64,000 nt of DNA, from NCBI RefSeq assembly GCF_003363755.1, contig NZ_CP031396.1, positions 3,975,001 to 4,039,000 on the forward strand, given 5' to 3'. The translations under genes and the position numbers were made by a program. This DNA comes from Pseudomonas protegens (GTDB lineage: Bacteria; Pseudomonadota; Gammaproteobacteria; Pseudomonadales; Pseudomonadaceae). Below the pieces are notes generated by a model. The model was not told the origin of the DNA. It ran no database searches and saw only the letters and a program-made list of their open reading frames with translations. Numbering within the stretch: position 1 is the stretch's first letter; each line of letters starts with the position of its first letter. Of this stretch, positions 7,978 to 20,982 are shown piece after piece.

Positions 7978-8046
7978 TAAATATGTGTGCGTAAGAGTCG
8001 ATGGAATCCTCTTCGCACCTTGGACTCATCGCCGAGGAGTTTTTCC

Positions 8047-9729
8047 GTGACTGACAGCAAACCCACCCAATTCCGCAACGTCGAAATCCGCGCTGCACGT
8101 GGCAACAAGCTGACCGCCAAGAGCTGGCTGACCGAAGCGCCGCTGCGCATGCTGATGAACAACCTCGACCCGGAAGTTGCAGAGAATCCCAAGGAACTGG
8201 TGGTCTACGGTGGCATTGGCCGCGCCGCGCGCAACTGGGAGTGCTATGACAAGATCGTCGAAGCCCTGACCCAGCTGAATGACGACGAGACCCTGCTGGT
8301 GCAGTCCGGCAAACCGGTGGGCGTGTTCAAGACCCACAGCAACGCACCGCGGGTGCTGATCGCCAACTCCAACCTGGTGCCGCACTGGGCCAGTTGGGAG
8401 CACTTCAATGAACTGGACGCCAAGGGCCTGGCCATGTACGGCCAGATGACCGCCGGCAGCTGGATCTACATCGGTAGCCAGGGCATCGTCCAAGGCACTT
8501 ATGAAACCTTCGTTGAAGCCGGTCGCCAGCATTACGACTCCAACCTCAAGGGCCGCTGGGTCCTGACCGCCGGCCTGGGTGGCATGGGCGGCGCACAACC
8601 GCTGGCCGCGACCTTGGCCGGGGCCTGCTCGCTGAACATCGAGTGCCAGCAGACCAGCATCGACTTCCGCCTCAAGACCCGCTACGTCGACGAGCAGGCC
8701 ACCGACCTGGACGACGCCCTGGCACGCATCAAGAAATACACCGCCGAAGGCCGCGCGATCTCCATCGCCCTGTGTGGCAACGCCGCAGAAATCCTGCCGG
8801 AACTGGTACGCCGTGGTGTGCGTCCGGACATGGTCACCGACCAGACCAGCGCCCACGACCCGCTCAACGGCTACCTGCCCAAGGGCTGGACCTGGGAGCA
8901 GTACCGCGACCGCGCCAAGACCGAGCCCGCTGCCGTGATCAAGGCCGCCAAGCAGTCCATGGCCGAGCACGTCAAAGCCATGTTGGCCTTCCAGAAGATG
9001 GGCGTCCCGACCTTCGACTACGGCAACAACATCCGCCAGATGGCCCAGGAAGAGGGCGTGGAAAACGCGTTCGACTTCCCGGGTTTCGTGCCCGCCTACA
9101 TCCGTCCGCTGTTCTGCCGTGGCGTTGGTCCATTCCGCTGGGCGGCGCTGTCTGGCGATCCGCAGGACATCTACAAGACCGACGCCAAGGTCAAGGAACT
9201 GATCCCTGACGATGCCCACCTGCACAACTGGCTGGACATGGCCCGCGAGCGCATCAGCTTCCAGGGCCTGCCGGCGCGGATCTGCTGGGTCGGCCTGGGC
9301 CAGCGCGCCAAGCTCGGCCTGGCGTTCAACGAAATGGTCCGCAGCGGCGAGCTGTCGGCGCCGATCGTCATTGGTCGCGACCACCTGGATTCCGGCTCGG
9401 TGGCCAGCCCGAACCGTGAAACCGAATCCATGCAGGACGGCTCCGACGCCGTGTCCGACTGGCCGCTGCTCAACGCCCTGTTGAACACTGCCAGCGGTGC
9501 GACCTGGGTTTCCCTGCACCACGGTGGCGGTGTCGGCATGGGCTTCTCCCAGCATTCGGGGATGGTCATCGTCTGCGACGGTACCGACGAAGCGGCCGAG
9601 CGGATTGCCCGGGTGCTGCACAACGATCCGGCCACCGGGGTCATGCGTCATGCCGACGCCGGCTACCAGATCGCCATCGACTGCGCCAAGGAACAGGGCC
9701 TGAACCTGCCGATGATCACCGGCAAGTAA
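8047..9729 (+). CDS. hutU: Urocanate hydratase (urocanase)
   Basis: HutU hydrates urocanate to imidazolonepropionate using tightly bound NAD. The chosen GTG start, preceded by GAGGAG, gives 560 residues, close to the known P. putida enzyme. An ATG at 7987 is rejected because it lies in the leader. Visible features include the Rossmann-type [12 protein letters not shown] and the segment ARICWVG with Cys413, which appears to correspond to the NAD-linked Cys410 of P. putida. It also has the C-terminal [15 protein letters not shown]. It is the first gene of the long hutU-hutG unit. Confidence 0.97.
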
Positions 9730-9874: not shown

Positions 9875-11344
9875 ATGGCCTTAGCGAATGATCGTGCAAG
9901 CAGCAAGCCGTTGATCGAAAGGCGTTCGATCGACTACATCCCGGAAGCGGAAAGACACGGTCGTCTACTGAGCCAGTTCACCCTGTGGCTGGGTGCCAAC
10001 CTGCAGATCACGGCCATCGTCACCGGCGCTCTGGCGGTGGTGTTGGGCGGTGATGTGTTCTGGTCGTTGATCGGGCTGTTGATCGGGCAACTGCTGGGCG
10101 GCGCAGTGATGGCGCTGCATGCGGCGCAAGGACCGAAGCTCGGCCTGCCGCAGATGATTTCCAGCCGGGTGCAGTTCGGGGTCTATGGCGCGGCCATTCC
10201 GATGGTGCTGGTGTGCCTGATGTACCTGGGTTTCACCGCAACCGGCACGGTGCTTTCCGGGCAGGCGCTGGGCCAGATGTTCGGCGTCAGCGACAGCATC
10301 GGCATCCTGATCTTCGCCAGCGTGATTGTGCTGGTCACGGTGCTTGGCTATCGGGTGATTCACTACATCGGCCGGGTTGCCAGCGTGATCGGCGTGATCG
10401 CCTTTTTCTACCTGTTCAGCCGGCTGCTGAGCCAGACCGACGTCAGCGCCTTGCTGGCGATTCGGCACTTCAGCTGGAGCAGCTTCCTCCTGGCGGTGTC
10501 GTTGGCCGCATCCTGGCAGATCGCGTTCGGTCCTTATGTCGCCGACTATTCGCGCTACCTGCCGAGCAAGACGTCGCCATTGAAGACCTTCCTCGCCGCG
10601 GGTGCCGGTTCGGTGATCGGTGCCCAGGTGGCGATGGTGCTCGGGGTGTTCGCCGCGGCCCTGTCCCAGGGCCAGTTCGCCGGTCGTGAAGTGGCCTACA
10701 TCGTCGGCCTGGGCGGCACTGGCGCCATAGCGGCGTTGCTCTATTTCAGCATCGCCTTCGGCAAGGTGACCATCTCGACGCTGAACTCCTACGGCAGCTT
10801 CATGTGTATCGCCACCATCATCAGCGGCTTTCGCGGCGAGCTGAAAGTGACGCGCTTGCAGCGGTTGATCGCGGTGTTGCTGATTGTCGGTGCCGCGACC
10901 CTGATCGCGCTGCTGGGCCAGCACTCGTTCCTCGGCGCATTCAAGTCTTTCATCCTGTTCCTGCTGGCGTTCTTCACGCCCTGGAGCGCGATCAACCTGG
11001 TGGATTTCTACTGCATCACCAAAGAGCGCTATGACATCCCGGCGCTGTCCAATCCAGACGGCCGCTACGGGCGCTGGAATGCCATGGGCATCACTATTTA
11101 TGTGTTCGGCGTGCTGATCCAGATGCCGTTCATTTCCACCCACTTCTATACCGGCCCCCTGGTGGCGAGTCTGGGCGATACCGATATCTCCTGGATCATC
11201 GGCCTGGTGGTGCCCGCGGCGTTGTACTACGTCTGCGCGAAGAAGTGGCATGGCGCGGTGCCCGAGCACCTGATCCTGCCGTTAGAGCAGGACGCGCCCA
11301 ACGAACAAAAGCTGAGTCAGGCCCGTCGCGCTGCAGCGGTGTGA
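9875..11344 (+). CDS. NCS1-family (cytosine/purine permease-like) transporter, probably for urocanate
   Basis: This 489-residue inner-membrane carrier has about 12 hydrophobic segments and an N-terminal cytosolic stretch ERRSIDYIPEAERHG typical of CodB/NCS1 permeases. Helix 1 contains FTLWLGANLQITAIVTGALA. The ATG at 9875, with GAGG upstream at 9861, is chosen over 9794, which reads through a REPIN. Its place directly after hutU and before hutX suggests an imidazole-compound substrate. P. fluorescens strains carry a urocanate transporter (HutTu) in this position, so urocanate is the best guess; histidine or another nucleobase-like substrate is possible. Confidence 0.85.
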   Translation: MALANDRASSKPLIERRSIDYIPEAERHGRLLSQFTLWLGANLQITAIVTGALAVVLGGDVFWSLIGLLIGQLLGGAVMALHAAQGPKLGLPQMISSRVQFGVYGAAIPMVLVCLMYLGFTATGTVLSGQALGQMFGVSDSIGILIFASVIVLVTVLGYRVIHYIGRVASVIGVIAFFYLFSRLLSQTDVSALLAIRHFSWSSFLLAVSLAASWQIAFGPYVADYSRYLPSKTSPLKTFLAAGAGSVIGAQVAMVLGVFAAALSQGQFAGREVAYIVGLGGTGAIAALLYFSIAFGKVTISTLNSYGSFMCIATIISGFRGELKVTRLQRLIAVLLIVGAATLIALLGQHSFLGAFKSFILFLLAFFTPWSAINLVDFYCITKERYDIPALSNPDGRYGRWNAMGITIYVFGVLIQMPFISTHFYTGPLVASLGDTDISWIIGLVVPAALYYVCAKKWHGAVPEHLILPLEQDAPNEQKLSQARRAAAV

Positions 11345-11419: not shown

Positions 11420-12385
11420 ATGAAAATGCATAAGACCCTGCTGACCACGTTGCTGTCCATGGGCTTGCTGGCCGCTTCCGGCGCCCAGGCGGCCGGCTGG
11501 TGCGAGTCGGGCAAACCGGTGAAATTCGCCGGCCTGAATTGGGAAAGCGGCATGTTGCTGACCGACGTCCTGCAGTTCGTCCTGGAGAAGGGCTACGACT
11601 GCAAGACCGACAGCCTGCCGGGCAACTCCATCACCATGGAGAACGCCCTGGGCAGCAATGACATCCAGGTCTTCGCCGAAGAGTGGGTGGGCCGCAGCGA
11701 GGTGTGGAACAAGGCCGAGAAGGCCGGCAAGGTGGTGGGCGTCGGCGCGCCGGTGGTGGGAGCCGTCGAAGGCTGGTACGTGCCGCGCTATGTGATCGAG
11801 GGCGACGCCAAGCGCAAGCTCGAAGCCAAGGCGCCAAACCTGAAAAACATCGCCGACCTGGGCCAGTACGCCAGCGTGTTCAAAGACCCGGAAGAACCGA
11901 GCAAGGGCCGCTTCTACAACTGCCCGGCCGGTTGGACCTGTGAGCTGGACAACAGCGAGATGCTCAAGAGCTACGGCCTGGAAAGCAGCTACACCAACTT
12001 CCGCCCGGGCACCGGCCCGGCCCTGGATGCGGCGGTGTTGTCGAGCTACAAGCGTGGCGAACCGATTCTCTTCTACTACTGGTCGCCGACCCCGCTCATG
12101 GGCCAGGTGGATCTGGTCAAGCTGGAGGAGAAACCCGGCGTCGACAAGAGCGTGAGCATCAAGGTCGGCCTGTCCAAGACCTTCCATGACGAAGCTCCTG
12201 AACTGGTGGCGGTACTGGCCAAGGCCAACCTGCCCATCGACCTGCTCAACCAGAATCTGGCGCGCATGACCCGCGAACGCATCGAGTCGCCGAAACTGGC
12301 GAAACTCTTCCTCAAGGAACATCCTGAAGTCTGGCACCCATGGGTCAGCGACGACGCTGCCAGGAAAATCGACGCGGCCTTGTAG
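11420..12385 (+). CDS. hutX: Histidine ABC transporter, periplasmic substrate-binding protein (HutX, OpuAC-like)
   Basis: The 321-residue product starts with a Sec signal peptide (MKMHKTLLTTLLSMGLLAAS, cleaved near AQA-AG at about residue 25). The mature domain is a glycine-betaine/proline ProX/OpuAC-type binding fold, with the aromatic stretch YYWSPTPLMG. An intracellular Cys pair may form a periplasmic disulphide. It is followed by permease and ATPase genes in ProU-like order, and in the hut context is the histidine receptor HutX. Histidine specificity is inferred from location and known hut loci. Confidence 0.9.
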   Translation: MKMHKTLLTTLLSMGLLAASGAQAAGWCESGKPVKFAGLNWESGMLLTDVLQFVLEKGYDCKTDSLPGNSITMENALGSNDIQVFAEEWVGRSEVWNKAEKAGKVVGVGAPVVGAVEGWYVPRYVIEGDAKRKLEAKAPNLKNIADLGQYASVFKDPEEPSKGRFYNCPAGWTCELDNSEMLKSYGLESSYTNFRPGTGPALDAAVLSSYKRGEPILFYYWSPTPLMGQVDLVKLEEKPGVDKSVSIKVGLSKTFHDEAPELVAVLAKANLPIDLLNQNLARMTRERIESPKLAKLFLKEHPEVWHPWVSDDAARKIDAAL

Positions 12386-12457: not shown

Positions 12458-13309
12458 ATGTTTCCAGAAAGCTTCACCTTTTCCATCGCCGACTGGGTCA
12501 ACGGCTGGGTCGACTCCCTGGTGACCAATTACGGTGATGTGTTCCGGCACATTTCCGACACCTTGTTGTGGGCCATCGTCAACCTTGAAGGCCTGCTGCG
12601 CATGGCGCCCTGGTGGCTGATGCTGGCGATTGTCGGCGGCATTGCCTGGCACTCCACCCGCAAGCTGCTGACCACGGCGGTGATTGTCGGCCTGCTGTTC
12701 CTGGTGGGCGCCGTCGGCCTGTGGGACAAGCTGATGCAGACCCTGGCGCTGATGCTGGTGGCGACCGTGATCTCGGTGCTGATCGGCATTCCCCTGGGGA
12801 TTCTCTCGGCTCGCAGCAACCGCTTGCGTTCGGTATTGATGCCGCTGCTGGACATCATGCAGACCATGCCCAGCTTCGTGTACCTGATCCCGGTGCTGAT
12901 GCTGTTCGGCCTGGGCAAGGTGCCGGCGATCTTCGCCACGGTGATCTACGCCGCACCGCCGCTGATTCGTCTCACCGACCTGGGCATCCGCCAGGTGGAC
13001 GGTGAAGTGATGGAGGCGATCAACGCCTTCGGCGCCAACCGCTGGCAACAGCTGTTCGGCGTGCAACTGCCTCTGGCCCTGCCAAGCATCATGGCGGGGA
13101 TCAACCAGACCACCATGATGGCCCTGTCGATGGTGGTGATCGCCTCGATGATCGGGGCCCGCGGCCTGGGCGAGGATGTGCTGGTGGGAATCCAGACCCT
13201 CAACGTCGGGCGCGGCCTGGAAGCGGGGTTGGCGATCGTGATTCTGGCGGTGGTGATCGACCGCATTACCCAGGCCTACGGTCGTCCACGTCATGAGGTG
13301 AGCAAATGA
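12458..13309 (+). CDS. hutW: Histidine ABC transporter permease HutW
   Basis: This 283-residue inner-membrane protein belongs to the ProW/OpuAB permease family, with about six hydrophobic segments. The EAA loop for ATPase docking reads [22 protein letters not shown]. Segments such as [19 protein letters not shown] and [18 protein letters not shown] are typical of compatible-solute permeases. The stop overlaps the hutV start by 4 nt. It should form a homodimeric channel with two HutV ATPases. Confidence 0.92.
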
Positions 13310-14136
13310 GCAGCGCTGCCGTGAGCAAGATCGAAGTCAGGAACGTCTTCAAGGTATTCGGCAACCGCCCCTCTGACGCCCTGGCGATGATCCGCCAGGG
13401 CCAGAGCAAGGATCAGGTACTGGCCCAGACCGGCTGCGTGGTGGGGGTCAATGATCTGTCCCTGAGCATCGGCACCGGTGAGATCTTCGTCATCATGGGC
13501 CTGTCCGGTTCCGGCAAGTCGACCCTGGTGCGCCACTTCAACCGCCTGATCGACCCCACCAGCGGGGCGATCCTGGTGGATGGCGAAGACATCCTGCAAT
13601 ACGACATGGAAGCCTTGCGCCAATTCCGCCGGCACAAGATCAGCATGGTGTTCCAGAGCTTCGGCCTGCTGCCCCACCGCAATGTTCAGGACAACGTCGC
13701 CTACGGCCTCAAGGTGCGTGGCGAGAGCAAGTCGCTGTGCGCCGAGCGGGCCCTGCACTGGATCAACACCGTGGGCCTCAAGGGTTACGAGAAGAAGTAC
13801 CCGCACCAGCTGTCCGGCGGCATGCGCCAACGGGTCGGCCTGGCCCGGGCCCTGGCCGCGGACACCGACATCATCCTCATGGATGAAGCCTTCAGCGCCC
13901 TGGACCCGTTGATCCGCGCCGAGATGCAGGACCAGCTGCTGGAGCTGCAGAAGACCCTGCACAAGACCATTGTCTTCATCACCCACGATCTGGACGAGGC
14001 GGTACGCATCGGCAACCGCATCGCGATCCTCAAGGACGGCCGCCTGATCCAGGTGGGTACGCCGAAGGAGATCCTGCATTCGCCGGCGGATGAGTACGTC
14101 GATCGTTTCGTCCAGCGCCGCGCCGCCACCGTGTAG
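13306..14136 (+). CDS. hutV: Histidine ABC transporter ATP-binding protein HutV
   Basis: The 276-residue ATPase has Walker [10 protein letters not shown], a Q-loop in [11 protein letters not shown], the signature [16 protein letters not shown] and Walker [14 protein letters not shown]. The H-loop is FITHDLDEA. ProV-type N-terminal features ([18 protein letters not shown]) are present, but the C-terminal CBS domains of full ProV are absent. It completes HutXWV. The TAG stop at 14134-14136 lies inside a REP element. Confidence 0.94.
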
Positions 14137-14205: not shown

Positions 14206-15729
14206 ATGTCCCAGGCTGAAAAAATCGTTATCGCCGACGCCCCTCTGGGTTGGCAGGATGTTGTCGCTGTCGCCCGTCATGGCGCGCAGCTGGCGCTTTC
14301 GGCCCAGGCCTGGGCGCGTATCGACAATGCCCAGGCCATCGTCCGCCAGGTGGTGGACAGTGGCGAGCGCGCCTATGGCATCAGCACGGGCCTGGGCGCC
14401 TTGTGCAACGTGGTGCTGGCCGGTGAGCAACTCAGCCAGCTGTCGCGCAACACCTTGCTCAGCCATGCCTGCGGTGTCGGGCCGGCGCTGGCCGATGAGC
14501 AGACCCGGGCGATCCTTTGCGCCGCCATCATCAACTACAGCCACGGCAAATCCGGCATCCACCGGCAAGTGGTCGAGGCGCTGCTGACCCTGCTCAATCG
14601 CGGCATCACTCCACAGGTGCCGTCCCAGGGCTCGGTGGGTTACCTGACCCACATGGCCCACATTGGCATCGCCTTGCTTGGCGTCGGTCAGGTCAGCTAT
14701 CGCGGTCGTATTGTCAGCGCCGAACAGGCCCTGGCCGAAGAGGGGCTGCAGACGGTGCAACTGGGGGCCAAGGATGGCTTGTGCCTGGTCAACGGCACGC
14801 CGTGCATGACGGGCCTGAGTTGCCTGGCCCTGGCCGATGCCAGTCGCCTGTTGCAGTGGGCCGACGTCATCGGCGCCATGAGCTTCGAAGCCCAGCGGGG
14901 CCAGATCGACGCCTTCGATGCCCAGATCATTGCCCTCAAGGCGCACCCCGGCATGCAGGTGGTGGGCAGCAATCTGCGGGCCTTGCTCGATGGCAGTGAA
15001 GTCATCGCCGCCAGCCGCGGCATCCGCACCCAGGACGCCTTGAGTATCCGTTCCATTCCCCAGGTGCATGGCGCCGCCCGGGATCAACTGGCCCATGCGG
15101 TCAAACAAGTGGAAACCGAGCTTAATGGCGCGACCGACAATCCGTTGCTGCTGGGCACCCCGGAGCACTATCGAGTGGTGTCCCAGGCCAACCCCCACGG
15201 GCAATCGGTGGCGCTGGCGGCGGACCTGCTGGCCATCGCCATGGCCGAGATCGGCTCCATTGCCGAACGTCGCCTGGACCGCTTGATCAACCCCCATGTC
15301 AGTGGCTTGCCGGCGTTCCTGGTCAGCGAGCCCGGGGTCAACTCCGGAATGATGATCGTGCAATACGTGGCCGCCTCGCTGTGCGCACAGAACCGTCAGC
15401 TGGCCCAGCCGGCGGTGCTGGACAACTACGTGACTTCGGGCCTGCAGGAAGACCACCTGAGCCTGGGCACCAATGCCGCCCTGAAGCTGCATCAGGTGCT
15501 GGAGAACTGCACCCAGATCCTGGCCATCGAGTACCTGCTGGCGGCCCAGGCCTTCGAGTTTCTCAAGGAGCAGCGTTTCGGCACCGGCACCGGTATCGCC
15601 TGGTGCCTGCTGCGCGAGCGGGTCCCGGCCTATGACCAGGACCGCTGGCTGGCGCCGGACATTGCCGACGCCGCAGCGCTGCTCAAGGACCCTTTGCTGC
15701 TGCACAAACGCTTTTCCAAGGTGCAATGA
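14206..15729 (+). CDS. hutH1: HutH1: histidine ammonia-lyase paralogue lacking the MIO triad
   Basis: This intact 507-residue member of the aromatic ammonia-lyase family lies upstream of canonical hutH2. It keeps YGISTGLG, LSHACGVG, an NG motif (NGTPCMTG), the Gln and Arg of TQDALSIR, and the C-terminal QEDH. However, where HutH2 reads [15 protein letters not shown], this protein reads GSVGYLTHMAHI at about residues 142-153. The Ala-Ser-Gly that cyclises to the MIO cofactor is missing, and the following Asp is Tyr. Active-site Tyr280 and Phe329 equivalents are Leu and Pro. Classical deamination is therefore unlikely; a regulatory or binding role is possible but unproven. Confidence 0.9.
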   Translation: MSQAEKIVIADAPLGWQDVVAVARHGAQLALSAQAWARIDNAQAIVRQVVDSGERAYGISTGLGALCNVVLAGEQLSQLSRNTLLSHACGVGPALADEQTRAILCAAIINYSHGKSGIHRQVVEALLTLLNRGITPQVPSQGSVGYLTHMAHIGIALLGVGQVSYRGRIVSAEQALAEEGLQTVQLGAKDGLCLVNGTPCMTGLSCLALADASRLLQWADVIGAMSFEAQRGQIDAFDAQIIALKAHPGMQVVGSNLRALLDGSEVIAASRGIRTQDALSIRSIPQVHGAARDQLAHAVKQVETELNGATDNPLLLGTPEHYRVVSQANPHGQSVALAADLLAIAMAEIGSIAERRLDRLINPHVSGLPAFLVSEPGVNSGMMIVQYVAASLCAQNRQLAQPAVLDNYVTSGLQEDHLSLGTNAALKLHQVLENCTQILAIEYLLAAQAFEFLKEQRFGTGTGIAWCLLRERVPAYDQDRWLAPDIADAAALLKDPLLLHKRFSKVQ

Positions 15730-15851
15730 ACCGTTTTTTCCATCACCAGCGTGCCAAGGCGTCACTCGTGCAAAACCGCGAATGACGACGGATAACGGAA
15801 GCTTCCGGAGCGACTGGTAGTTATTACAAAACTCTCAAAAGGAGCATGAAT

Positions 15852-17384
15852 GTGACTGCGCTAAACCTGATTCCCGGCCAACTGACCCTGGCCCAACTGC
15901 GGGCCATCTATCAGCAGCCGCTGACCCTGACCCTGGACGACAGCGCCTCGGCGCAGATCGACGCCAGCGTCGCTTGTGTCGAACAGATCCTCGCCGAGAA
16001 CCGCACTGCCTACGGGATCAACACCGGTTTCGGCCTGCTGGCTTCGACCCGCATCGCCAGCGCCGACCTGGAAAACCTGCAGCGCTCCCTGGTGCTGTCC
16101 CATGCCGCTGGCGTCGGTGAGCCCATCAGCGACGATCTGGTGCGCCTGATCATGGTGCTCAAGGTCAACAGCCTGAGCCGCGGTTTCTCCGGCATCCGCC
16201 GTCAGGTGATCGATGCCCTGATCGCCCTGATCAACGCCGAGGTCTATCCGCATATCCCGCTCAAGGGCTCGGTGGGCGCTTCCGGCGACCTGGCGCCTCT
16301 GGCCCATATGTCCCTGGTGCTGCTGGGTGAGGGCAAGGCGCGCTACAAGGGCCAGTGGCTGGAAGCGACCGCGGCCCTGGAAGTCGCCGGCCTCAAGCCG
16401 CTGACCCTGGCCGCCAAGGAAGGCCTGGCGCTGCTCAACGGCACCCAGGTGTCCACCGCGTTCGCCTTGCGCGGGCTGTTCGAAGGCGAAGACCTGTTTG
16501 CCGGTGCTCTGGTGTGCGGCGGCCTGACGGTGGAAGCGGTGCTGGGTTCGCGCTCGCCGTTCGACCCACGGATTCACGCCGCTCGCGGTCAGCGCGGGCA
16601 GATTGACACCGCTGCGGCCTATCGCGCATTGCTGGGGGACAGCACCGAGGTGTCCGCCTCGCACCAGAACTGCGACAAGGTCCAGGACCCGTACTCCCTG
16701 CGTTGCCAGCCACAAGTGATGGGCGCCTGCTTGACTCAGTTCCGCCAGGCCGCCGAAGTGCTGGTGGTCGAAGCCAACGCGGTGTCCGATAACCCACTGG
16801 TGTTCGCTGCCGAAGGCGATGTGATTTCCGGTGGCAACTTCCACGCCGAACCCGTGGCCATGGCGGCCGACAACATGGCCCTGGCCATCGCCGAGATCGC
16901 GTCCCTGAGCGAGCGCCGTATCTCGCTGATGATGGACAAGCACATGTCCCAGCTGCCGCCGTTCCTGGTGGCCAATGGCGGGGTCAACTCCGGCTTCATG
17001 ATTGCCCAGGTGACCGCTGCGGCCCTGGCCAGTGAAAACAAGGCCCTGGCCCACCCGCACTCGGTGGACAGCATTCCCACTTCCGCCAACCAGGAAGACC
17101 ACGTTTCCATGGCGCCGGCCGCCGGCAAGCGCTTGTGGGAAATGGCCGAGAACACCCGCGGTGTGCTGGCCGTGGAATGGCTGGCGGCCTGTCAGGGCCT
17201 GGACCTGCGCGAAGGCCTGAAAACCTCGCCGACCCTGGAAAAAGCCCGCGCCACCCTGCGCGAGAAGGTGGCGTACTACGAGAAGGACCGTTTCTTTGCT
17301 CCGGATATCAACGCGGCCAGCGAGTTGTTGGCTTCGCGCTGCCTGAATGGGCTGCTGCCAGCCCAGTTGTTGCCGAGCCTGTAA
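15852..17384 (+). CDS. hutH2: Histidine ammonia-lyase (histidase)
   Basis: HutH2 deaminates L-histidine to trans-urocanate, the entry step of the pathway. A GTG at 15852 is chosen over the ATG at 15846 because AAGGAG at 15839-15844 gives 7-nt spacing only to the GTG. It also places the MIO-forming Ala-Ser-Gly at residues 143-145, exactly as in P. putida. Tyr in [40 protein letters not shown] and SANQEDHVS are all present. The 510-residue length is standard. The product urocanate is also the inducer that releases HutC. Confidence 0.97.
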
Positions 17385-17479: not shown

Positions 17480-17519
17480 CTGCCGCCCCGCGCTTCTGCG
17501 CGGAACGCACTTGTCCGAT

Positions 17520-17533
17520 AACAATAAAAGGGA
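17520..17533 (+). promoter_or_regulatory. Candidate Hfq/Crc A-rich motif at the hutT ribosome binding site
   Basis: AACAATAAAAGGGA contains AANAANAA followed directly by the AAAAGGGA Shine-Dalgarno region, 8 nt before the hutT ATG. Hfq with Crc binds such motifs to repress translation during growth on preferred carbon sources. The motif is seen in the sequence; the regulation is inferred. Confidence 0.6.
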
Positions 17534-18965: not shown

Positions 18966-20171
18966 ATGAGAACTCTTTGGCAACACTGCAACGTCGCCAG
19001 CATGGCCCAGGGCACTTACTCGATCATCGAGGACGCGGCCATCGTGACGTCAGGGGCGCACATCGAGTGGATTGGCCGGCGCCAGCAGGCGCCGGTCGCC
19101 GATGACCACCAGGTCCAGGACCTGGGCGGCGCCTGGGTGACTCCGGGCCTGATCGATTGCCACACCCATACGGTGTTCGGCGGCAACCGCAGCGGCGAGT
19201 TCGAGCAGCGCCTGCAGGGCGTGAGCTACGCTGAGATCGCCGCGGCCGGTGGCGGTATCGCCAGCACCGTGAGGGCGACCCGCGCGGCCACTGAAGAGGA
19301 GCTGTTCGTCAGCGCTCGCAAGCGTCTGCTGAGCCTGTTGCGCGACGGTGTCACCAGCGTGGAAATCAAGTCCGGCTACGGCCTGGACCTGGCCAGCGAG
19401 CGCAAGATGCTGCGGGTGATCCGCCGTCTTGGCGAGGAGTTGCCGGTCAGTGTGCGCAGCACCTGCCTGGCGGCTCACGCTCTGCCGCCGGAATATGCCC
19501 AGCGCAGCGACGACTACATTGAGCACATCTGCAGCGAGATGCTCCCGGCCCTGGCGGCCGAGGGGCTGGTGGATGCGGTGGATGCCTTCTGTGAGTACCT
19601 GGCGTTCTCCCCGGCGCAGGTGGAGCGGGTATTCATTGCCGCGCAGAAGCTCGGCCTGCCGGTGAAACTGCATGCCGAACAATTGTCGTCCTTGCATGGC
19701 TCGAGCCTGGCGGCGCGCTACCGGGCGCTGTCCGCCGATCACCTGGAGTTCATGACCGAGGACGATGCCATGGCCATGGCGGCTTCGGGAACCGTGGCAG
19801 TGCTGTTGCCGGGGGCTTTCTATTTCCTCCGGGAAACCCAGTTGCCGCCGATGGAAGCCCTGCGCAAGCACGGGGTGAAGATTGCCGTGGCCAGCGACCT
19901 CAATCCCGGGACTTCGCCGGCGTTGTCGCTGCGCCTGATGCTGAACATGGCCTGCACCTGTTTGCGGTTGACGCCGGAAGAGGCGTTGGCCGGGGTCACC
20001 CTGCACGCGGCCCAGGCCCTGGGCATGGAGCAGACCCATGGTTCACTGGAGGAGGGTAAGGTGGCGGACTTTGTCGCCTGGCAGATCGATCGTCCCGCCG
20101 ACCTGGCTTACTGGCTGGGCGGCGACCTGGAAAAACGCGTCGTGCGACACGGCGTTGAAGTGACTGTTTAG
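18966..20171 (+). CDS. hutI: Imidazolonepropionase
   Basis: HutI opens the ring of 4-imidazolone-5-propionate to yield N-formimino-L-glutamate, using a bound metal ion. The 401-residue cytosolic amidohydrolase shows the HxH metal motif in [10 protein letters not shown] (about residues 64-73), then [15 protein letters not shown] with a metal His, and [11 protein letters not shown] with the metal Asp. The ATG lies 12 nt after the hutT stop, with GGAGG in between. The hutG start follows 10 nt after its stop. Confidence 0.96.
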
Positions 20172-20181
20172 GAGGCAGGTT

Positions 20182-20982
20182 GTGGATAAGGTTCTGACAT
20201 TCAAACAAGGCCGGGTGCCCCTGCTGATCAGCATGCCCCACGCCGGTACGCGCTTGACCCCGGCAGTGATGGCCGGGCTGGTTCCACAGGCGCAAAGCCT
20301 GCCGGACACCGACTGGCATATTCCGCGGCTGTATCAGTTCGCCGAGGAGCTGGGAGCCAGCACCCTGGCGGCCGAATACTCGCGTTTCGTCATCGACCTG
20401 AATCGGCCGTCCGATGACAAGCCGCTGTACGTCGGTGCTACCACCGGGCTGTACCCGGCGACGCTGTTCGATGGCGAGCCGTTGTTCGTTGAAGGGCAGG
20501 CGCCGTCCAAAGAAGAGCGACAACAGTACCTGGAGCAAGTCTGGGGGCCCTATCACCGCACCCTGCAGGGGGAGCTGGCACGGCTCAAGGCCGAGTTCGG
20601 CTATGCCTTGCTGTTCGATGCCCACTCCATCCGTTCGCTGATCCCTCATCTGTTCGAGGGCAAGCTGCCGGACTTCAACCTCGGCACCTTCAACGGCGCC
20701 AGCTGCGATCCGCAACTGGCCGGCCGTCTGGAGAGCATCTGCGCCGCCCACGGCGATTACACCCATGTGCTCAATGGTCGTTTCAAGGGCGGTCATATCA
20801 CCCGGCATTACGGCAACCCGGCCGAGCACATTCATGCGGTGCAACTGGAACTGGCGCAGAGCGCCTATATGGAGGAGTTCGAGCCATTCCGCTATCGCGA
20901 GGACCTGGCTGCACCGACCCAGGTGGTGCTCAAGGCATTGCTCCAGGGACTGCTGGCCTGGGGGCAGGAGCGTTACCGCTGA
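20182..20982 (+). CDS. hutG: N-formylglutamate deformylase
   Basis: HutG hydrolyses N-formyl-L-glutamate, made by HutF, to glutamate and formate, completing the five-step pathway. The 266-residue protein begins at a GTG with an AGGAGG box about 8 nt upstream. Family features are ISMPHAGT near the N-terminus, FVIDLNRPSDD, and FDAHSIRS around the metal-binding His. It ends the hutU-hutG unit, and a REPIN follows. Confidence 0.95.
   Translation: MDKVLTFKQGRVPLLISMPHAGTRLTPAVMAGLVPQAQSLPDTDWHIPRLYQFAEELGASTLAAEYSRFVIDLNRPSDDKPLYVGATTGLYPATLFDGEPLFVEGQAPSKEERQQYLEQVWGPYHRTLQGELARLKAEFGYALLFDAHSIRSLIPHLFEGKLPDFNLGTFNGASCDPQLAGRLESICAAHGDYTHVLNGRFKGGHITRHYGNPAEHIHAVQLELAQSAYMEEFEPFRYREDLAAPTQVVLKALLQGLLAWGQERYR

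Follow-up and report, generated by a model that had tools for sequence, protein, structure and literature searches.

HutH1 in the hut locus of Pseudomonas protegens: a candidate MIO-independent lyase for histidine betaine

Can a histidase homologue that lacks the residues of its catalytic group still be an enzyme, and if so, for which substrate? The question is raised by the histidine utilization (hut) locus in a 64,000-nt stretch of the Pseudomonas protegens genome (contig NZ_CP031396.1, positions 3,975,001 to 4,039,000; hereafter the window, within which positions are counted). Two histidase-like genes are neighbors there. hutH2 (15846..17384, + strand) encodes a canonical histidase of 512 aa (TIGR01225, 733 bits) with the Ala-Ser-Gly triad that forms the methylidene-imidazolone (MIO) group, whereas hutH1 (14206..15729, +) encodes a 507-aa, GYL-type, MIO-less homologue of the aromatic amino acid lyases (Pfam PF00221, 538 bits). 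Genes of the HutH1 class are common in the genus sample and are called histidases, yet they lack the group needed for histidase chemistry. Comparison of the sequences makes it probable that HutH1 is a lyase without MIO whose product, urocanate or a close analogue, enters the hut pathway. With less assurance, we favor the more specific proposal that its substrate is a quaternary histidine, most likely hercynine (histidine betaine, N-alpha-trimethylhistidine), which it would convert to urocanate and trimethylamine independently of MIO.

The shortened loop and its conservation

Where HutH2 reads GSVG-ASGD-L, HutH1 reads GSVG-Y-L and is otherwise full length. The loop of HutH1 at the place of the triad, GSVGYLTHMAH, comprises residues 142-152 (14629..14661, +), with the codon of Tyr146 at 14641-14643. 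A preliminary description of this DNA had noted a missing triad in an intact, full-length frame, and the 507-aa open frame bears this out. Its coordinates for the HutH2 triad codons, 16278-16286, are also correct, but these codons specify residues 145-147 rather than 143-145. It had further described the change as the loss of exactly three residues plus an Asp-to-Tyr substitution. Three residues are indeed missing (Y versus ASGD), but whether ASG was lost and Asp became Tyr, or SGD was lost and Ala became Tyr, is a choice of alignment, and the alignments made here set Tyr under Ala. Having no MIO-forming residues, HutH1 should not be a normal histidase, as had been expected, and hutH1 is reported to be dispensable for growth on histidine in P. 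fluorescens SBW25 (PMC8871633, accessible text). HutH1 does not reach the equivalog cut-off of the NCBIfam hutH model TIGR01225 (525.4 vs. 539.15 bits), while it passes that of the broader subfamily model NF006871 (539.4 vs. 524 bits).

The triad (as ASGDL) was absent from all 160 frames that resemble HutH1 more than HutH2 in a set of 165 loci, several of which overlap the same genomes, and ASGDL was present in all 139 other family frames of the same loci. Each of 80 named-genome loci has GSVGY in HutH1 and GSVGASGDL in HutH2, and the HutH1 frame is open in every one. Because all HutH1-class frames are without the motif and all other family frames have it, the absence of the triad is neither chance nor sequencing error. 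Median dN/dS was 0.085 for HutH1 and 0.050 for HutH2 (2882 usable of 3240 pairs, from 81 Pseudomonas loci), with the HutH1 value higher in 2695 of the 2882 pairs, which are not independent of one another. HutH1 evolves somewhat faster than HutH2 yet is firmly constrained by purifying selection. The comparison of the triad and of dN/dS across Pseudomonas had been suggested in the preliminary description, and it revealed neither relaxed selection nor broken frames. That hutH1 is a decaying pseudogene or an annotation artefact, as loss of the triad might suggest, is therefore rejected on the dN/dS values and the open frames, and we give it a negligible probability; in all three rows that were flagged with one internal stop among the matches listed (L081, L082, and L083), the HutH1-class frame proved open, at 512 to 549 codons from stop to stop.

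The shortened loop extends well beyond this species. Among the matches listed for the genus sample, 291 of 298 genomes have a family match, which is in the HutH1 score range (E <1e-130) in 208 and weaker only in 83; these 208 genomes were assigned by score, the loop being read only at fetched loci. At a threshold of 1e-105, matches were obtained in 56 of 198 genomes at the family level, spanning 6 of 19 genera, and in 4 of 369 at the class level, namely the window's own genome, G849 (GYL), and the triad-bearing G578 and G698. At the phylum level (398 genomes), a profile of ten GYL proteins, HutH1 and that of G849 among them, gave 23 matches at 706-853 bits, followed by a gap and a remainder at 531 bits and below. 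All 13 high scorers outside the window's family show GS-x-G-Y-L or GS-x-G-Y-I. Homologues of the GYL form are also plasmid-borne, in Erwinia (71% identity), Rhizobium (~50%), Sinorhizobium (49%), Priestia megaterium (46%), and Klebsiella (42%), and the six plasmid loops read, from one or two records per genus, all contain GS-x-G-Y. The GYL form thus reaches Alphaproteobacteria and Priestia. Of 896 plasmid records with a family match, 226 come from Klebsiella, more than from any other genus; the remaining Klebsiella records match a type of their own (39.7%), NZ_CP043934 being the one whose loop was read.

In a 101-row tree, a single branch separates the 35 GYL rows from the 62 MIO rows and the 4 ergothionase-like rows. 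Support for this branch is 82, and 99 when the Klebsiella and Priestia rows are removed. The same three groups were recovered in a second tree of 68 rows, rooted with two aminomutases as outgroup and built without L003, a long branch. There the GYL and ergothionase-like rows share one side of a branch with support of 79, a value that is not decisive for a sister pair. The trees allow one or two losses of MIO. Judged by their sequences, the GYL proteins are an old and widespread group without the usual catalytic triad. The preliminary description had spoken of a lost triad, but descent of HutH1 from a HutH2 copy by such a loss is not supported, the GYL form being one group that reaches other families and classes. 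A recent duplication of HutH2 followed by loss was also rejected, HutH1 being only 37-39% identical to HutH2-type proteins and grouping with the GYL proteins of other families and classes. The loop feature of HutH1 is real, old, and constrained.

Active site and proposed chemistry

The remainder of the active site was compared across the 35 GYL and 62 MIO rows, which were sorted into these classes by the loop motif itself; in the loop, the former all have Tyr with a three-residue gap and the latter the triad, one outgroup row (L261) with Thr-Ser-Gly instead of Ala-Ser-Gly being counted among the MIO rows by annotation. With the numbering of P. putida histidase in brackets and all codons on the + strand, the positions kept in HutH1 are Tyr57 (Tyr53; 14374..14376; 35/35 GYL and 62/62 MIO rows), His87 (His83; 14464..14466; 35/35 GYL), Asn196 (Asn195; 14791..14793; 34/35 GYL, the exception being the Klebsiella plasmid protein with Gly), Arg282 (Arg283; 15049..15051; 35/35), and Glu415 (Glu414; 15448..15450; 35/35), and the Gln277 position is identical in 35/35. 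Two positions are changed, as the preliminary description had correctly seen for the Tyr of QDPYSLR and the Phe of GNFHAEP. Leu279 (Tyr280; 15040..15042) is Leu in 35/35 GYL and 4/4 ergothionase-like rows, that is, in all MIO-less rows, and Tyr in 62/62 MIO rows. Pro330 (Phe329; 15193..15195) is variable in the GYL rows (Pro 21, Ala 12, Cys 1, Gly 1). The 81 Pseudomonas HutH1 proteins are invariant at Tyr57, His87, Tyr146, Leu147, Asn196, Gln276, Leu279, Arg282, Pro330, and Glu415. A thermophilic histidase lost all activity on mutation of the residues equivalent to Tyr53, His83, Asn195, and Glu414, according to the accessible text of PMC11432326. Because the essential non-MIO residues of histidase are kept while the loop and the Tyr280 and Phe329 positions change, the GYL active site looks retuned rather than dead.

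Tyr146 itself is present in 35/35 GYL rows and in 81/81 Pseudomonas rows. This invariance could be expected if HutH1 were an ordinary histidine ammonia-lyase with another electrophile, for example one built from Tyr146. However, we know of no precedent for a histidase with an alternative electrophile, and we regard this explanation as very improbable.

By its Pfam model (PF00221) and its predicted fold, HutH1 is a member of the aromatic amino acid lyase superfamily. A structure model (mean predicted local distance difference test score, pLDDT, of 75) matches 7TQR (Z 39.3) and 1B8F, the P. putida histidase HutH (Z 35.9), which are also the closest solved relatives by sequence, as well as 6S7J, the ergothionase (ergothioneine trimethylammonia-lyase) of Treponema denticola (VIA-align Z 36.9 over 475 residues). 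As pLDDT is below 50 at residues 1-3, 53-72, 143-146, 272-276, 310-330, 365-378, and 404-418, a set that includes the loops with Tyr57, Tyr146, Pro330, and Glu415, we used the model for fold only and drew no geometry from it. Ergothionase has no MIO, releases trimethylamine, and converts ergothioneine to thiourocanate (PMC13405746, accessible text), and the accessible text of papers on hercynine and urocan- compounds has ergothionase making thiolurocanate.

HutH1 can thus be set against two known enzymes. With histidase (1B8F; TIGR01225) it shares hut clusters and the essential non-MIO residues, and it differs in having no Ala-Ser-Gly, in Leu for Tyr280 and Pro for Phe329, and in falling below the equivalog cut-off. 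With ergothionase it shares the fold and the absence of the triad. Leu at the Tyr280 position is common to the GYL rows, the ergothionase-like rows, and the printed 6S7J sequence, a substitution that may be convergent or shared, and the ergothionase-like rows keep Tyr53, Gln277, Arg283, and Glu414 as the GYL rows do. The two differ in the loop, which in ergothionase is one residue short with Asp kept (EG-D) and in GYL proteins three short with Tyr, and at the Asn195 position, which is Ser, Val, or Ala in ergothionase-like rows. Structural alignment gives 26% identity between HutH1 and ergothionase, and the two belong to separate groups on the trees. We therefore describe HutH1 as a putative MIO-free lyase of the histidase fold that is ergothionase-like in its proposed chemistry; its sequence does not establish membership in the ergothionase family.

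Ammonia is a poor leaving group, and in a normal histidase its departure depends on activation of the substrate by MIO. A trimethylated alpha-nitrogen leaves readily by itself, without need of MIO. By analogy with ergothionase, a quaternary nitrogen may leave without MIO in HutH1 as well, a type of elimination that was not considered in the preliminary description. In the proposed mechanism, histidine betaine would be imported by HutXWV (or, elsewhere, by a BCCT or another carrier), and HutH1 would bind hercynine through its kept His, Asn, Arg, and Glu, with the loss of the MIO loop possibly making room for the three methyl groups. The kept Tyr/Glu machinery would then take the beta proton, yielding urocanate and trimethylamine independently of MIO, and the urocanate would be used by HutU, HutI, HutF, and HutG of the same cluster.

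Gene neighborhood and the choice of substrate

We compared the surroundings of 38 GYL loci with those of 40 hut loci that have an MIO histidase and come from genomes without a high-scoring GYL match. The GYL loci were our choice from more than 150, with only 4 drawn from the 80 named Pseudomonas loci, and the controls were hand-picked from the phylum-search table rather than drawn at random; stretch lengths were 8.5-20 kb and 8.7-17.5 kb, respectively. Also scanned, but outside the 38, were L248 and L238 (controls) and L173, L174, and L175 (other MIO-less forms). Other hut genes were found in 31 of the 38 GYL loci. hutU was present in 20 of 38, some of these stretches being short, versus 39 of 40 controls. 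A location with hutU, hutI, and hutF/G favors urocanate itself as the product, and hence hercynine over ergothioneine as the substrate.

Carriers of a quaternary-ammonium type (BCCT, or a ProX-like or OsmF-like binding protein) were detected at 21 of 38 GYL loci and at 1 of 40 controls (L238; Fisher p 9e-8, uncorrected for shared ancestry). Since the references for transporters were mostly taken from GYL loci, other quaternary-ammonium carriers in the controls could have escaped detection, and the contrast overstates the independent support because several loci come from one lineage. BCCT carriers were found at six GYL loci and no controls, always in the order hutU, BCCT, GYL (L074, L075, L076, L084, L211, and L218). 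Pfam BCCT was matched by 4/4 proteins tested and OpuAC by 2/2, including HutX of the window; the solved relatives of the one BCCT protein searched are trimethylamine, betaine, DddT, choline, and carnitine carriers. In the window, hutX (11420..12385, +) encodes an OpuAC/ProX-type substrate-binding protein (PF04069, 201 bits) whose 8 solved matches bear the depositors' names of glycine-betaine, proline, or choline binders, or of a betaine-type permease subunit. hutW (12458..13309, +) encodes a ProW/ChoW-like permease (TIGR03416, 294.6 bits, under the cut-off of 363) and hutV (13306..14136, +) a ProV-like ATPase (TIGR01186, 363.2 bits, over the cut-off of 326.6). NCS1 permeases occur at 8 of 38 GYL loci and 0 of 40 controls.

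The neighborhoods also bear on a non-catalytic role, suggested in the preliminary description, in which HutH1 would bind histidine or urocanate, or would assemble with HutH2 and tune it. The absence of the triad would suit such a role, as would the adjacency of hutH1 and hutH2 and the MIO histidase found within the same stretch at 17 of 38 GYL loci, and all 23 genomes in which a GYL match scored high have at least one further family match, which leaves room for co-assembly. However, the other essential histidase residues are conserved across very divergent members, and in ergothionase the fold is catalytically active without MIO (PMC13405746, accessible text). Moreover, on the Klebsiella plasmid NZ_CP043934 (L171, 88152-105573) a GYL gene lies with hutU, hutI, hutC, hutD, and hutF, and its product is the only family match found on that record; in G1076 a GYL gene stands in a hut cluster without an MIO histidase within 20 kb, a further match being on another contig. 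We consider a non-catalytic HutH1 improbable.

A number of observations weigh against HutH1 as a hercynine lyase. By phmmer, the sequence of HutH1 matches histidase better than ergothionase (313 vs. 221 bits), and Phe329, which is Pro, Ala, Cys, or Gly in GYL proteins, is kept in 4/4 ergothionase-like rows. Seven of the 38 GYL loci have no hut gene in the available stretch. At 12 of 38, versus 1 of 40 controls (L240), the binding protein is of an amino-acid ABC type, without the quaternary type; two of these that were scanned are lysine/arginine/ornithine- or HisJ-like, below the cut-offs of those models. Five loci have neither type (L077, L085, L215, L217, and L170, with carriers of the major facilitator superfamily), and counting by lineage on the 101-row tree leaves about four quaternary-type and about four amino-acid-type associations. 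The Klebsiella binding protein matches the OsmF model only weakly (90 bits vs. a cut-off of 400), and the GYL protein beside it, with Gly at the Asn195 position, is on a long branch. Finally, histidine uptake in SBW25 is reported to involve HutXWV (PMC8871633, accessible text).

Part of this variation could mean that substrates differ within the group, since transporter types vary by lineage and the Klebsiella protein differs at Asn195. HutH1 might then be an MIO-free lyase for another imidazole substrate, such as a partly methylated histidine, ergothioneine or its sulfonate, or another imidazole-ring betaine, to which the same active-site facts apply. Against this, HutH1 is only 26% identical to ergothionase. 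The product of ergothionase is thiourocanate (PMC13405746, accessible text). Thiourocanate is not the substrate of HutU, yet 31 of 38 GYL loci hold hut genes. We judge another substrate to be unlikely, if the least improbable of the alternatives, and on balance lean toward hercynine as the substrate of HutH1. For the GYL proteins at large, the chances are about even that they are an unrecognized family of hercynine trimethylammonia-lyases with dedicated betaine transporters, now annotated as histidases.

If hercynine is the substrate, the dispensability of hutH1 for growth on histidine would be explained, and there would be a second type of MIO-free elimination beside that of ergothionase. Histidine betaine would be degraded by way of urocanate to glutamate in many Pseudomonas and in other bacteria of soil and plants, and the histidase annotations of GYL proteins would need correcting. 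Hercynine is reported from fungi, actinobacteria, and cyanobacteria in the accessible literature. Histidine betaine from a soil-crust cyanobacterium was depleted in intact crust, though uptake was not seen in the isolates tested (PMC4595634, accessible text); with hercynine as the substrate, a catabolic route would be provided for a compound that vanishes from soil crust. We found no paper proposing an MIO-free or betaine-lyase role for HutH1 in a literature search largely without subscription journals.

The surrounding locus and other MIO-less forms

The hut locus of the window has the order hutF (on the - strand), hutC, hutD, hutU, NCS1 permease, hutX, hutW, hutV, hutH1, hutH2, amino-acid permease, hutI, and hutG. 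hutF, hutC, hutD, and hutU were named by recognition, and hutI (18966..20171, +; TIGR01224, 489 bits) and hutG (20182..20982, +; TIGR02017, 397 bits) by NCBIfam. hutU (7987..9729, +), the urocanase gene, assigned without a family scan and used as the HutU reference for the locus comparison, would be the entry point of the proposed product. The NCS1 permease gene (9875..11344, +; PF02133, 164 bits) is in the position of hutTu, and the amino-acid permease gene after hutH2 occupies that of hutT. PA5093 presumably has the hutH1 position in PAO1 and is given no weight here. It is called hutG in the accessible text of PMC12772324.

The same block of NCS1 permease, hutXWV, and hutH1 lies between hutU and hutH2 in SBW25 (PMC8871633), where hutTu is reported to be a urocanate transporter. 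In the published SBW25 account hutH1 is called a histidase, and the accessible part of its text does not mention the triad loss, a link to ergothionase, or an alternative substrate. Four loci from genus genomes without a GYL match (L239 to L242) have no ProX-like binding protein and no NCS1 permease around hutH, a pattern that fits the published five-gene insertion hutTu-hutXWV-hutH1 (PMC8871633, accessible text).

A HutC-like palindrome, TTGT-N6-ACAA, is located at 17511-17524, between hutH2 and the permease gene. This pattern, the one chosen for the count, has 3 sites in the window versus 0.42 expected. The same genome has a third family member outside the window (G000:C1:4063965-4065338, locus L003), whose product is 34% identical to HutH1 and has an intact ASGDL triad and Tyr at position 280.

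A further MIO-less form, with G-A-A-D in place of G-A-S-G-D, was found in L173 (5992-7497) and L211 (5513-7045). It adjoins an OsmF-type binding protein in both loci; L173 also has hutC, and in L211 the G-A-A-D and GYL genes lie within a few kilobases of each other. On a Sinorhizobium meliloti plasmid (L174, 5893-7533), a gene annotated as histidine ammonia-lyase has ergothionase as its best solved match (299 bits) and lies ~2.7 kb from a gene annotated as dimethylsulfoniopropionate lyase.
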